Below, in pieces: positions 4,464 through 9,614 of a DNA stretch of 64,000 nucleotides; within the stretch, counting starts at the first letter, position 1, and each line of letters starts with the position of its first letter. The notes beneath the pieces are model-generated. The model saw nothing but the letters and a program-made list of their open reading frames with translations. It had not been told where the DNA came from and made no database searches. The stretch spans positions 2,329,501 to 2,393,500 of the forward strand of contig NZ_CP009291.1 of the NCBI RefSeq assembly GCF_000767465.1, written 5' to 3'. Source of the DNA: Novosphingobium pentaromativorans US6-1. Lineage in GTDB: Bacteria > Pseudomonadota > Alphaproteobacteria > Sphingomonadales > Sphingomonadaceae. Position numbers and translations under genes: made by a program.

Positions 4464-5084
4464 TTACTGGCGGACCGGATCGGCCAAACGCGCCATGATC
4501 GCCGCGACATAGGCCTGCGTCTCGCGAATGCGCGGGATGCCACCGGCCTGCTGCACGCGCATCGGCCCTGCATTGTAGGCCGCCAGCGCCTTCTCGATAT
4601 CGCCGCCGAAAGCGTCCAGCTGCATGCGCAGGTATCGCGCGCCGCCTTCCAGATTCGCCATGGGATCGGCGGCATCGACCCCCATCTGCCGCGCGGTGCC
4701 GGGCATGAGCTGGGCGAGACCGCGCGCGCCGACGGGGGAAACCGCCTTTTCGTTCCAGCGGCTTTCCTGCCAGACCACGGCTTCGAGCAGGCTGGGGCTG
4801 ATGTCATACTTCGCCGCCAGCTCGGCCACGCGTGTCCGCCAGCGCGAAGGCCCGGCGGCATCGAGGGCATGGGTGATCGACTGGGGCTCCAGCCCGGCGT
4901 CGAGATGCTCGGGAACCGCTAGTGCTTCGCCGGCCAGGGCCTCCTGCCCGGGAAGCTGGACCGGACCGCCTGCAATCCAGGTGAAGCCGCCCTCGCCCAC
5001 TTGCAGGACATCGGCGCAGGCAACGCCCGGGATGGCCAGAATCGTGGCACCCAGGGCAGCAATGATCGCATTACGCATGTCCAA
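4464..5084 (-). CDS. Lytic transglycosylase, SLT domain
   Basis: A secreted murein lytic transglycosylase that cleaves the MurNAc-GlcNAc bond in the periplasm. Residues 1-24 form a signal peptide (NAIIAALGATILAIPGVACA). The SLT domain covers roughly residues 80-200, with the catalytic glutamate in VVWQESRWNEKA, then GARGLAQLMPGTA and AAYNAGP. At 206 aa it is a minimal, single-domain form. The start is ambiguous: TTG at 5084 has AGGGA at about 10 nt, while ATG at 5078 is only two codons in. Confidence 0.9.
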   Translation of the reverse strand: MDMRNAIIAALGATILAIPGVACADVLQVGEGGFTWIAGGPVQLPGQEALAGEALAVPEHLDAGLEPQSITHALDAAGPSRWRTRVAELAAKYDISPSLLEAVVWQESRWNEKAVSPVGARGLAQLMPGTARQMGVDAADPMANLEGGARYLRMQLDAFGGDIEKALAAYNAGPMRVQQAGGIPRIRETQAYVAAIMARLADPVRQ

Positions 5085-5188: not shown

Positions 5189-6280
5189 TCAGTCGAGGCC
5201 GAGCGCAGTGCGGATCGCGCGCCAGGAGAGCAGCTTGAAGTTCTGCGCATCGGGGGCGTTGTCCCCGTCCTGCGCAATGAACAGGCCTTCCGGGAACTGC
5301 GGACCGAAATCGCCGAGCACCACCTCGATCCCGTCGGTATCGCTGGTCCCGTCGATCGCCCCGCCATTGATGCGGAAGCGGCCTGCGAGCTTGCCCGAAG
5401 CCGGATCGAACACGGCATAGGCATTGTCGCCCTGGCTCGAAGCCACCAGCCAGCTGCTGCTGCCGCCCGGTTTCTGGGCAATGGCAAGTCCCTCGACATC
5501 GTCGACCAGCCCGTCTTCGGCCCCGACGCGCGCGAACGGCGCGGCTTTCAGTTCGCCCGTCAGAGGCACGCGCCAGATGCCGACGTCCTCTTCGGCGATG
5601 TAGAGCGTGTGTGTCGCATCGTCGACGACGCAGCCTTCCGACTGGCTGGCGAACTTCACCTGCCGCAGATAGTCCGGCACGATCCGGCCATCCTTTTCGT
5701 ACAGGCCGCTTTCGGCGACGGTCCCATCCTTGAGCACGACATAGGCCCGCGCCAGCTCGTTCGGGCCGAGCGCACCGCCAAGGCAGAACCCGTAGGCCTC
5801 GGCCGGTGCATGACCGGCAGGCAGGAAGGTATCCGAACCGATTTCCGTCAACTTGCCCGTCGCACCATCGAGCCAGAACAGGGCAATGCGCGGCTGCGCC
5901 TTGTCGGTGCGGTCGCTGGCAGCCACGAGGATACGCGTGCCGCCATCGGCCATGCGCACCTCACGCAGGTCGACATTGTTGATCGCCCCGGCAGCAAGGA
6001 AATCGCGAACCTTGCCGTCAAGATCATAGACATAGAGACCGGCCTTCTTGTCGGTGCCGACGATCAGGCTCGCCGCGGGATCGGCCGCATTGCGCCAGAT
6101 TGCCGGGTCGTCGGCGGCATCGGCATGGGCCGTACCCACCGGCAGGGTTTCGGCCTGGGCCGGAACGTCGATGGCAGGCAGGTAGGGCCGCGGCGCCTCG
6201 CCGGTTGTCGCGCAACCGGCGAGGAGGACGGCCGGGAGCATCACTCCCGACCCGGCCCCGAGGATGGTCCGCCAATCCAT
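5189..6280 (-). CDS. 3-phytase, beta-propeller type, lipoprotein
   Basis: A beta-propeller phytase (BPP) that releases phosphate from phytate in a calcium-dependent way. The 363-aa product starts with a lipoprotein signal (AVLLAGC), so it is probably tethered in the outer membrane or periplasm. Family signatures are clear: DAADDPAIW and IVGTDKKAGLYVYDLDG near residues 55-90, NNVDLR, EGCVVDD...LYIAEEDVGIW, DDVEGLAI, GDNAYAVFD, and SDTDGIEV...FPEGLFIAQDGDN. The start ATG shares one base with the stop of the upstream TonB-dependent receptor gene (TGATG), implying translational coupling in one operon. Adjacency of BPP and TonB receptor genes is known from other Gram-negatives. Confidence 0.93.
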   Translation of the reverse strand: MDWRTILGAGSGVMLPAVLLAGCATTGEAPRPYLPAIDVPAQAETLPVGTAHADAADDPAIWRNAADPAASLIVGTDKKAGLYVYDLDGKVRDFLAAGAINNVDLREVRMADGGTRILVAASDRTDKAQPRIALFWLDGATGKLTEIGSDTFLPAGHAPAEAYGFCLGGALGPNELARAYVVLKDGTVAESGLYEKDGRIVPDYLRQVKFASQSEGCVVDDATHTLYIAEEDVGIWRVPLTGELKAAPFARVGAEDGLVDDVEGLAIAQKPGGSSSWLVASSQGDNAYAVFDPASGKLAGRFRINGGAIDGTSDTDGIEVVLGDFGPQFPEGLFIAQDGDNAPDAQNFKLLSWRAIRTALGLD

Positions 6281-9042
6281 CAGAAGTTCATCCTTGCACC
6301 GAACTTGAAGGTCGGGCCGTACTTCTCGAACTGCAGCAGGCGCTGCGCACCGGCGAAGTTCTGGTAGGCGAAGTACTTCGCGTTGTTGATGTTGATGACG
6401 TCGAGCGTCAGGCGCAGGTTGTCGGTCACCTTGAGCTTGCCCGAGAAATCGAGCTGGAAGTGATTGTCGACGAACCTGTCTTGCGTCGCATCGTCACCCA
6501 CTTCATCGAGGTACTTGTCACGATAGGTCCCGGCCAGACGCAGGTCCACCGGACCCTTCTCATAGCCAAGCACGACGTTGAAGGTGTTCTTCGAAGAGCT
6601 GGGCAGCGAGATCTTGCGACCGTCGGCCAAGGTGCCGTTGGCGTAAGTGTAGGTGTAGTTGAGCTGGGTCAGCAGGCCGTCGAAGGGCGCCGGCAGCATC
6701 GAATAGACCTGGCTGAAGCTCGCTTCGAAACCGACTATTTGAGCGCTGTCGCCGTTGATGGTGGTCTGGAACTGGTCGTAGAGCGTGCCGTTGTAGGTGA
6801 AGTCGTCGAAGGTCTGCTTGACAGCGTAGTTGCTGATATCCTTGTAGAAGCCTCCGAACGAGATCGCCCCGTTGCCCGAGAAGTAGTACTCGAACCCGAC
6901 GTCGGCGTTCCACGCTTCGTAGGGCTTGAGATCGGGGTTGCCGAATTCAGCCTCGTTGTCCTCGTTCACCGTGTTGCGCGGCGCCATTGCCGAGAGCTTG
7001 GGACGCACGAGACTCTTGTAGCCTGCCGCGCGGAACACGAGGTCGTTCTGCGGAGCCCAGCGGACCGTCAGGCTCGGCAGCCAGTCGGTGTAACTGCGTT
7101 TGAACCGGACCGGATCGACGGCAACGGTATCCCCGTCATCCGTGACGATGTTGCCGTTGAGCACATTGCGGGTGTGCTCCATGCGCACGCCGCCGATGAC
7201 GCGCAGGGCATCGCTGTCCCAACGGGCCAGGGCATAGCCGGCGGTGATGTCTTCCTTGACCGAATAGTCGTCCGTCGCCGAAGCGAGCGCGGTCTCGTAG
7301 TCGTCGATCTCGAAACCGTCGCGGTTGGCGAGCAGGAAGTCCTTGGGGCCGGTCTTGCTGGCGACGGGGCCAAGGCTGATCCCGTCGAGCCGGTAGGTCT
7401 GCTCGCCCAGCACGTCGGCAAGCGTGTAGTCGCCGTCGTAGTCACCGTAGTAGATCATGTCGAAGTTGTAGGACTTCTTACGCCAGCGTGCCTTCGCGCC
7501 CGCCTGGATCGTGAAGTCGCCGCTGTCGGTCGCGAAAGTCCGCGCCAGGTCGGCCTTCACCGCATATTCCCGGTCCTGGCTGTCCGAATTCGTGGTCAGC
7601 TCGGTGCGGTTGAACTTATAGAGCGTAGGATCGTTGACGAGGTCGGCCCCGCTGGCAATCGAATAGTGCGGAACCCGCGGATCGCTGTAATCCCAGTCGA
7701 TCGCCACGCCATCGTCGTCGAAACGGGCGCGGAAGCGGGTCGGGTCGACGGAGAAGTCTTCCTTCTCGGTCGACTTGGCATAGCTGGCCGACCAGTTGAA
7801 CTTCCAGGTCCCGGTATCGGTGTCGCTGCCGATCGCGACGGTGCGGATGCGCTGGCGCTCGAAGCGATCCTTGAGGTCGCGGCGCACTTCGATGCGATCG
7901 TCTGAATCGCGGAACGATGCACTGGCATCGTCGCCGGCAAAGGGCTCGGCGTCGAAGATGAAAGTCGTGCGGCGGCGATACTCGTGATCGTCGAACTGGC
8001 TCCAGTTGCCGCGCACATAGGCGGTCGTCGTGTCGGACACGCGCCAGTCGAAGTTGAGCGTCGCGTTGAGGCGCTTACGCGTGACGTCGTAGTCGCGGTA
8101 TTCCAGTTCGGGCGAATAGGCGATGCCGCCGTCGGTAACGTCCCAGTTGTCCGATTCGACGTTATCCGTCTCGAACTTGCGCTCGTAGTAGCTCACGCCG
8201 CCCGAAACGCCGAAGTCGTCGCCGATGCGCGTCGAGAAGTCGAAACCGCCCTTGGGCGTGACCTCGCCCGAGTAGTCGTTGTAGCTGCCCTCGGCGCGGA
8301 CCGCGTAGTAGTCCTTCTTGCGGTCGAAGGCGCTGGTGGTCTTGATCTCGATCGAGGCGCCGATGGTGTCGGCGTCCATGTCCGGTGTCAGCGACTTCTT
8401 CACTTCGATCGATTCGATCGTGTCAGAGGAAATGACGTCCAGCGCGACCTGACGGGTATCCGATTCCGGCGCAGGCACGCGCACGCCGTTGAGCGAGGTG
8501 GCGTTGAGTTCGGGATCGAGGCCGCGCACGGAAACGAAGCGGCCTTCGCCCTGGTCGTTGAGAATGTTCACGCCCGGCAGGCGGCGCAGCGATTCGGCGA
8601 CGTTCTGGTCCGGGAACTGGCCGATGGCATCGCGCGTCAGCACCGATTCCACCCCGTCGGCGGCCTTCTGGCGCGAGAGCGAGCTGGACAGGTTGGCCGC
8701 CTGGCCGACGACGAGGATGTCGCCCCCGCCGATGCCGCGCAGGTCGAAATCGCCCGAAACGCTGCCCGTCTCCGGCACTTCGATCGTCCGCGATTCGATC
8801 TCGGCGCCGACATAGCGCGCTTCCAGCGTGTAGGTGCCCGCCGGAATGTCGGCGATGATGTAATTGCCGCTGCGGTCCGTCTCCACCGAACGGTCCAGTT
8901 CGACGATTCTGACCGAGGCCGACTGCAGAGCGCGCGTGCCGGTGGCGTCATAGACGTTACCGGAAATTTCGCCTGCATGGGCAATGGAGGCAAAAGAGGC
9001 CGAAGCAAGCAGCCCCGCAAGGAGGCGAGCAGTGGAGTTCAT
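6280..9042 (-). CDS. TonB-dependent receptor, phytate operon
   Basis: An outer-membrane TonB-dependent transporter of 920 aa. Order of parts: signal peptide (1-23, ending AHA), a CarboxypepD_reg-like beta domain (about 25-90), a TonB-box-like DILVVG near residue 107, the plug (QFPDQNVAESLRRLPGVNI, then GRFVSVRGL), and a long barrel ending in F as usual (FGARMNF). This is the Caulobacter/Xanthomonas-type receptor. Coupling to the phytase gene by a 1-nt overlap suggests that it imports phytate or its breakdown products; the substrate is inferred. The ATG at 9042 gives a proper signal peptide and has AGGGA upstream; longer frames are unlikely. A tandem PhoB-like site sits 60-100 bp upstream. Confidence 0.93.
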   Translation of the reverse strand: MNSTARLLAGLLASASFASIAHAGEISGNVYDATGTRALQSASVRIVELDRSVETDRSGNYIIADIPAGTYTLEARYVGAEIESRTIEVPETGSVSGDFDLRGIGGGDILVVGQAANLSSSLSRQKAADGVESVLTRDAIGQFPDQNVAESLRRLPGVNILNDQGEGRFVSVRGLDPELNATSLNGVRVPAPESDTRQVALDVISSDTIESIEVKKSLTPDMDADTIGASIEIKTTSAFDRKKDYYAVRAEGSYNDYSGEVTPKGGFDFSTRIGDDFGVSGGVSYYERKFETDNVESDNWDVTDGGIAYSPELEYRDYDVTRKRLNATLNFDWRVSDTTTAYVRGNWSQFDDHEYRRRTTFIFDAEPFAGDDASASFRDSDDRIEVRRDLKDRFERQRIRTVAIGSDTDTGTWKFNWSASYAKSTEKEDFSVDPTRFRARFDDDGVAIDWDYSDPRVPHYSIASGADLVNDPTLYKFNRTELTTNSDSQDREYAVKADLARTFATDSGDFTIQAGAKARWRKKSYNFDMIYYGDYDGDYTLADVLGEQTYRLDGISLGPVASKTGPKDFLLANRDGFEIDDYETALASATDDYSVKEDITAGYALARWDSDALRVIGGVRMEHTRNVLNGNIVTDDGDTVAVDPVRFKRSYTDWLPSLTVRWAPQNDLVFRAAGYKSLVRPKLSAMAPRNTVNEDNEAEFGNPDLKPYEAWNADVGFEYYFSGNGAISFGGFYKDISNYAVKQTFDDFTYNGTLYDQFQTTINGDSAQIVGFEASFSQVYSMLPAPFDGLLTQLNYTYTYANGTLADGRKISLPSSSKNTFNVVLGYEKGPVDLRLAGTYRDKYLDEVGDDATQDRFVDNHFQLDFSGKLKVTDNLRLTLDVININNAKYFAYQNFAGAQRLLQFEKYGPTFKFGARMNF

Positions 9043-9099
9043 GGTGGAGAGTTCCCTGTGACTTTTCTGATGTCGCGGGGCGCCCACTAGGCACGAACG

Positions 9100-9139
9100 A
9101 TGACACTGCCGTGCCAATCCGACGACAGTTTGATGACAA
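9100..9139 (-). promoter_or_regulatory. Tandem Pho box (four PhoB half-sites)
   Basis: Read on the minus strand, four 7-mers lie exactly 11 bp apart: TTGTCAT (9139-9133), CTGTCGT (9128-9122), TTGGCAC (9117-9111) and GTGTCAT (9106-9100). The PhoB half-site consensus is CTGTCAT/C with 4-bp spacers and an 11-bp period. The first pair makes a near-consensus 18-bp Pho box; the second pair continues in phase. It lies about 60 bp upstream of the TonB receptor start. Confidence 0.8.
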
Positions 9140-9249
9140 TAGGTTGCAAAACAGCAACTTAGGTTAAAGCTCTGAACAGGGAAAAACGGCGCAAGTCCGC
9201 GCCTTCAGCACCGACAGCACTTACATTCGACATGGCGATGAAAGAATAA

Positions 9250-9324
9250 TGGTGCTGCTGGGGAGGATTGAACTCCCGACCTCACCCTTACCAAGGGTGC
9301 GCTCTACCACTGAGCTACAGCAGC
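9250..9324 (-). tRNA. tRNA-Thr (anticodon GGU)
   Basis: On the minus strand the sequence folds as a tRNA. The 7-bp acceptor is GCTGCTG/CAGCAGC (9324-9318 with 9260-9254). The D-arm contains AGCTCAGTGGTAGAGC. The anticodon stem CACCC/GGGTG encloses loop TTGGTAA, giving anticodon GGT. The T-arm is GGGAGTTCAATCCTCCC. The 3' CCA is encoded at 9252-9250. Confidence 0.96.
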
Positions 9325-9452
9325 GCCTGCAACCGGCAAAGTCCGGCGCCGTCTCCCCGGCGATGCGGGGCAGGGGCGCGCTATTGTCTGCGTGCGGACC
9401 AATTGTCAAGCGTCGCTTGCGCTTTCCCGATCATGGATGCATTGCGCATGCC

Positions 9453-9614
9453 ATGAACGACGATGTCCGCAAACCCCAGGCATCCCCCGCAGCCGCGCAG
9501 ACTCGCGAGGAAAGGCTGGCTGCCAAGCTGCGCGAGAATCTGCGCCGCCGCAAGGCCCAGGCCCGGGCCCTGGGCGCCCCCGGCGATGCCGCGAGCGATG
9601 CGCAGCCCGATTGA
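9453..9614 (+). CDS. Conserved small basic protein, unknown function
   Basis: A 53-aa product from the ATG at 9453. Its core is TREERLAAKLRENLRRRKAQARA, an amphipathic basic helix resembling small conserved sphingomonad proteins of unknown function. It sits between tRNA-Thr and gpmA on the gpmA strand. It has no membrane segment or cysteine. No role is assigned; an RNA- or DNA-contacting helix is a guess from charge alone. Confidence 0.55.
   Translation: MNDDVRKPQASPAAAQTREERLAAKLRENLRRRKAQARALGAPGDAASDAQPD

Follow-up and report, generated by a model that had tools for sequence, protein, structure and literature searches.

Which regulator controls the operon for a TonB-dependent receptor and a phytase in Novosphingobium pentaromativorans US6-1, and is this operon a member of the phosphate-starvation regulon? 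We addressed this question in a stretch of 64,000 nucleotides (the window) of the genome of this strain, which contains the whole operon on its minus strand. The first gene (6280..9042) encodes a TonB-dependent receptor of 920 aa with Pfam plug and barrel domains (NCBIfam TIGR01782, 579 bits). It overlaps by one base with the second gene (5189..6280), the product of which (363 aa) belongs to the beta-propeller phytase family and is predicted to have this enzyme activity (PF02333, 225.7 bits, cut-off 21; the single match in the genome). The two genes are probably cotranscribed. A gene for a lytic transglycosylase with an SLT domain (4464..5084, PF01464, 92.9 bits) follows on the same strand after 104 bp. 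The upstream neighbour, which is located outside the operon and also on the minus strand, is a tRNA-Thr(GGT) gene (9250..9324, tRNA gene call). A terminator-like stem at 9188..9203 on the same strand, marked by the consensus scan only, lies between this gene and the array described below and is perhaps the terminator of the tRNA. The N-terminus of the phytase (LLAGCATT) resembles a lipoprotein signal, and Cys23 is invariant in 11 aligned phytases; it is possible that the phytase is anchored in the membrane beside its receptor.

An earlier note on this DNA had named four PhoB-like 7-mers upstream of the operon, spaced by exactly 11 bp on the coding strand. Reading of the minus strand from 9139 to 9100 confirmed this array, which consists of half-site 1 (TTGTCAT, 9133..9139), half-site 2 (CTGTCGT, 9122..9128), half-site 3 (TTGGCAC, 9111..9117) and the promoter-proximal half-site 4 (GTGTCAT, 9100..9106), with the spacers caaa, cgga and ggca. 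The distance to the operon, given in the note as about 60 bp, is 57 bases when counted to the ATG of the receptor gene (9042). A full PhoB site is composed of two tandem half-sites with TGTCA tracts, as stated in the available part of PMC6194859. The repeats in the window are direct and have a TGTCA core, from which half-sites 2 and 3 deviate (TGTCG and TGGCA). To score the array we used four copies of CTGTCAT, a consensus that was fixed beforehand and is the one given for E. coli in the available text of PMC4415409. The array matches it in 22 of 28 positions (6, 6, 4 and 6 for the individual half-sites), half-site 3 being the weak one. A TA follows 11–12 bases past half-site 4 and is part of a probable −10 region (CCTAGT, 9086..9091, minus strand), which departs far from TATAAT. 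The consensus scan found no sigma-70 consensus promoter at 8800–9500, and this is expected for an activator-dependent promoter. We conclude that the array is very probably the operator of a PhoB-dependent promoter with two tandem 22-bp Pho boxes, and that this promoter would be induced by phosphate starvation.

Short TGTC words in an intergenic region could also fall into phase by chance. With a period of 11, no other position in the window, on either strand, scores as high as the array. Scores of 19 come from the same array shifted by one repeat, an independent site reaches 17 at best, and other periods (8–10 and 12–14) yield at most 17–18. When the intergenic region (207 bp) was shuffled 20,000 times with its dinucleotides kept, no shuffle reached 22 (maximum 20), and neither did any of 3,000 shuffles in which any period from 7 to 15 was allowed. 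A pattern of 14 specified bases has a single exact match in the 5.46-Mb genome, which is the site in the window; as the pattern was drawn from the array and its orthologs, the match at this place is by construction, while its uniqueness is not. If up to two mismatches are permitted, this pattern occurs at 42 places in the genome, compared to 15 for a reversed control. Patterns of two half-sites are common in the window, and this speaks for chance: the window search gave one exact match (G000:C1:2338624-2338638), and with one mismatch allowed the number of matches in the window is not significant (2 found, 1.94 expected). Because the two-half-site pattern alone is not significant in the window, the strength of the site lies in its four-fold phasing. 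Genome-wide, the same pattern with one mismatch has at least 219 matches versus 52 for the reversed control, a count on which we did not rely. Considering the shuffles, and also that period and spacing are kept in orthologs and at most of the non-orthologous and divergent loci (see below), the probability of a chance phasing is negligible.

A PhoB-dependent promoter requires that PhoB is encoded in the genome, which indeed carries a pstSCAB-phoU-phoB cluster. The PhoB protein scores 332.8 bits with TIGR02154 (cut-off 296.2), and its stretch RTVDVHIRRLRKA, which we take to be the DNA-recognition helix of PhoB, is identical to that of E. coli PhoB in an alignment to the 1gxp chain. PstC, PstA, PstB and PhoU are above their cut-offs; PstS is recognized, with a score below its own (161.7 versus 206.6). 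The best candidate for PhoR, about 5 kb upstream of pstC, has 265.6 bits and is thus below the cut-off of 334.2, as are the candidates in 13 of 14 control genomes. The genome contains a second PhoB-like ORF, located about 2.3 kb past phoB, which reaches 146 bits with TIGR02154 and is below the cut-off. At L092:13378-14182, a second PhoB-like ORF near the pst cluster is preceded by TGTCA-type 11-bp repeats, and another Pho-like array is oriented in the opposite direction, towards a phosphoesterase-like ORF.

To obtain PhoB sites from the genus itself, we collected the pst surroundings from 12 Novosphingobium genomes. A search expression located the pst promoter in 10 of them (not in L100 and L101). 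Like the array in the window, these promoters have TGTCA-type half-sites with 11-bp steps just ahead of the operon gene, in this case about 45–60 bases ahead of pstS, but with three clear half-sites, not four. They end on GTGTCAT and have AATAGG rather than CCTAGG as −10 region at a fixed spacing, both features being present by construction, since the search expression required GTGTCAT as the last half-site and a fixed distance to AAT/AATAGG, which also sets the TA at 11 bases past the last half-site. In an unanchored scan, 9 of the 12 pst loci showed AAT at the corresponding position. From nine distinct 7-mers of the 10 located promoters we built a PhoB log-odds matrix that did not include the phytate operon. 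The array in the window has a score of 31.3 with this matrix and takes rank 1 of 127,922 window positions; none of 20,000 mononucleotide shuffles was as good, the best one reaching 22.1. Scoring with a PhoB matrix, a check named in the earlier note, thus came out in favour of the site.

Many regulators of the OmpR family bind direct repeats. The array may therefore be bound by another member of the OmpR/PhoB family that recognizes 11-bp repeats, for example by the second PhoB-like protein encoded near pst, and the presence of this ORF in the genome is in agreement with such a view. The half-sites, however, match both the sites in the pst promoters of the genus and the PhoB sites of E. coli, it is the PhoB above the cut-off that has the helix stretch of the E. 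coli protein, and the gene content of the operon is that of phosphate scavenging. We consider another regulator very unlikely, and PhoB itself would be the protein that binds to the array.

The earlier note had also named conservation of the 11-bp period in orthologous promoters as a check, and this conservation was found. A same-genus search covered 58 other genomes, drawn from a larger group, and gave 11 loci with a receptor of at least 58% identity. All 11 have an ORF of 338–386 aa directly after the receptor gene, and the phytases of 10 of them align at 52–80% identity (L007 was left out). The tRNA-Thr(GGT) gene is located directly ahead of the operon in 9 of the 11; of the two exceptions, L011 has a tRNA-Gly gene instead and L013 has no tRNA gene in the stretch examined. 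In addition, GTDB genomes were scanned with the phytase alignment, and the best 80 of 425 loci were used. The nearest named relative among these best 80 of 425 is Novosphingobium mathurense (phytase 90%), and in 53 of the 80 a receptor-like gene lies directly upstream of the phytase gene. After removal of nine duplicates and of 14 loci that were set aside (receptor below 44% identity, or a cut or partial alignment), and with the window and the same-genus loci included, 42 ortholog promoters were compared. They are related, hence all counts are over non-independent promoters. The mean best score is 20.1 for a period of 11 and 13.9–14.5 for periods of 7–10 and 12–15, and period 11 is the best of the nine periods in 41 of the 42. 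A score of at least 18 is reached in 36 promoters, and in 34 none of 200 shuffles was as good. The TA 11–12 bases past the last half-site is also present in 36 of the 42; among the six that lack TA at +11 is L174, which has a score of 23. All six promoters with scores below 18 (L146, L163, L172, L173, L177 and L178) are from other named groups, not Novosphingobium, and for three of them (L163, L172 and L177) 10–62 of 200 shuffles were as good. The array is weaker outside Novosphingobium.

The conservation of single letters was measured in 33 arrays chosen for a score of at least 19. In these arrays conservation rises sharply at half-site 1, peaks at the GTCA cores of the first and the fourth half-site, where these letters are 97–100% invariant, and picks up again at CCTAGGGGCCCC beyond half-site 4. 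At the TA of the −10 region, T is found in 97% and A in 100% of the 33 arrays. Half-site 2 is less conserved than half-sites 1 and 4 except for its G and C. The commonest letters of half-site 3 are T-T-G-G-C-A-C, with the C at 94%, the A at 91% and the last C at 82%.

These data bear on the question whether both boxes are functional. In a single-box promoter, only one box would work, and the other would be a non-functional remnant owing to the weak third half-site. Half-site 3 matches the consensus in only 4 of 7 positions in the window, half-site 2 is conserved to a lower extent than half-sites 1 and 4, and the located pst promoters of Novosphingobium have three clear half-sites, all of which would fit to such a remnant. 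However, half-site 3 is weak but retains its own letters across the 33 arrays, and thus appears as a conserved variant; the outermost half-site 1 is conserved as much as half-site 4; and a weak third half-site is also present in E. coli pstS. We regard a single functional box as improbable and favour an operator of two boxes.

The closest known layout is that of pstS of E. coli K-12 (NC_000913), the boxes of which are bound by PhoB. The half-sites CTGTCAT, CTGTCAT, CTTACAT and CTGTCAC (spacers aaaa, attc and ataa) are followed by ten bases and then TA. Both promoters have in common four half-sites with 11-bp steps, a weak third half-site, and TA 11–12 bases after half-site 4. Because every element of the E. 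coli pstS layout is shared, we assigned the site in the window to the PhoB-dependent promoters with two boxes. There are also differences: the E. coli array is located 66 bp from the start codon (57 in the window), its half-sites are nearer to the consensus (25 versus 22 of 28), its −10 region is richer in A+T, and it drives a phosphate transporter, whereas the array in the window precedes a phytate operon. The phoA promoter of E. coli, like the site in the window, has TA at +11 past the last half-site. Two Pho boxes in phase are not unusual, as the four half-sites of pstS show. PhoB and tandem repeats were reportedly the subject of structural studies by Blanco et al. in 2002, 2011 and 2012. 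Multiple Pho boxes are also described for the ugp promoter of E. coli in the available part of PMC4415409, and according to that of PMC10294691 the distance from the pho box to the core promoter is strict.

The shared layout suggests the following mechanism. Under phosphate starvation a sensor kinase would phosphorylate PhoB, and protomers of PhoB~P would align head to tail, one on each of the four half-sites, possibly in a defined order and with cooperativity. The proximal pair of half-sites would replace the −35 element and recruit sigma-70-type RNA polymerase to the weak −10 region (CCTAGT) at its fixed distance. Receptor and phytase would then be produced at the same time. This would allow phytate or the products of its breakdown, the likely substrates of the receptor, to pass through the outer membrane and to serve as a source of phosphate.

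The combination of genes has precedents. Citromicrobium bathyomarinum is, as we assume, a sphingomonad relative. In the marine strain JL354 of this species a TonB receptor gene adjoins a phytase gene as in the window, and phytic acid was proposed as substrate (PMC3400609, in the available text of which PhoB has 0 occurrences). In a different species, Caulobacter crescentus, the PhoB regulon contains a phytase and TonB receptors according to the available part of PMC11208175, which parallels the control by PhoB that we propose here. As the earlier note had supposed, the site itself seems to be undescribed for sphingomonad phytase operons; we found no description in the open-licence literature.

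The 14 loci that had been set aside, minus L180, which is cut off, provide 13 operons with a non-orthologous receptor. Scores of at least 17 were obtained for 11 of them, and TA is found at +11 in 10 of the 13; period 11 tops the other periods in 10 of the 13 as well. For the 11 scoring operons at most 10 of 500 shuffles were as good, and for six of them none. L138 and L182, the other two, have no array (295 and 487 of 500 shuffles as good).

A further 27 of the best 80 of 425 loci have no receptor gene directly upstream of the phytase gene. Just upstream of the phytase gene, 24 of these loci score at most 16, the exceptions being L155, L167 and L181 with at least 17. In 14 of the 27, the phytase gene has as its neighbour on the opposite strand a receptor-like gene, in some cases recognized by weak similarity only. 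In 12 of these 14 divergent pairs, the highest-scoring minus-strand array of the whole locus is located immediately ahead of this receptor gene, with scores of 16–19 (L129, L135, L154, L159, L161, L164, L166, L167, L169, L176, L179 and L181; several are Sphingobium). Two loci (L160 and L168) have an array where a receptor gene begins that is located farther upstream. For the remaining 11 of the 27 loci the search revealed no receptor, and all arrays score 18 or less.

An 11-bp array might be a general feature of promoters of such receptors. This was tested with 18 loci of receptor paralogs, in which the ORF was chosen by receptor similarity and no phytase match was found in the 1.5-kb flanks; 17 of them were usable (L021 is cut). 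The mean score of the 17 is 14.9 at period 11 compared to 15.8 at the best other period, two of them reach 17, and period 11 is the best in only three. Since period 11 is not favoured in these paralogs, we rejected this explanation.

In sphingomonads, the four-half-site layout may be specifically selected at loci for receptor and phytase. It is found again at non-orthologous and divergent loci, and only three half-sites are clear in the pst promoters located in the genus; we put this forward as a tentative idea that we judge doubtful. If true, the conserved weak third half-site would lead to a steeper or later response to PhoB for phytate than for phosphate uptake.

The mechanism itself is textbook, and the layout of the array was already known from E. 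coli pstS. What may deserve further study is that the layout with four half-sites comes back at loci that are non-orthologous or divergent. Together with the 42 orthologs these loci form a natural set of promoters, from which it may be learned how the number and strength of half-sites tune the response to PhoB. For Novosphingobium, good sequence evidence places the use of phytate under the phosphate-starvation regulon.
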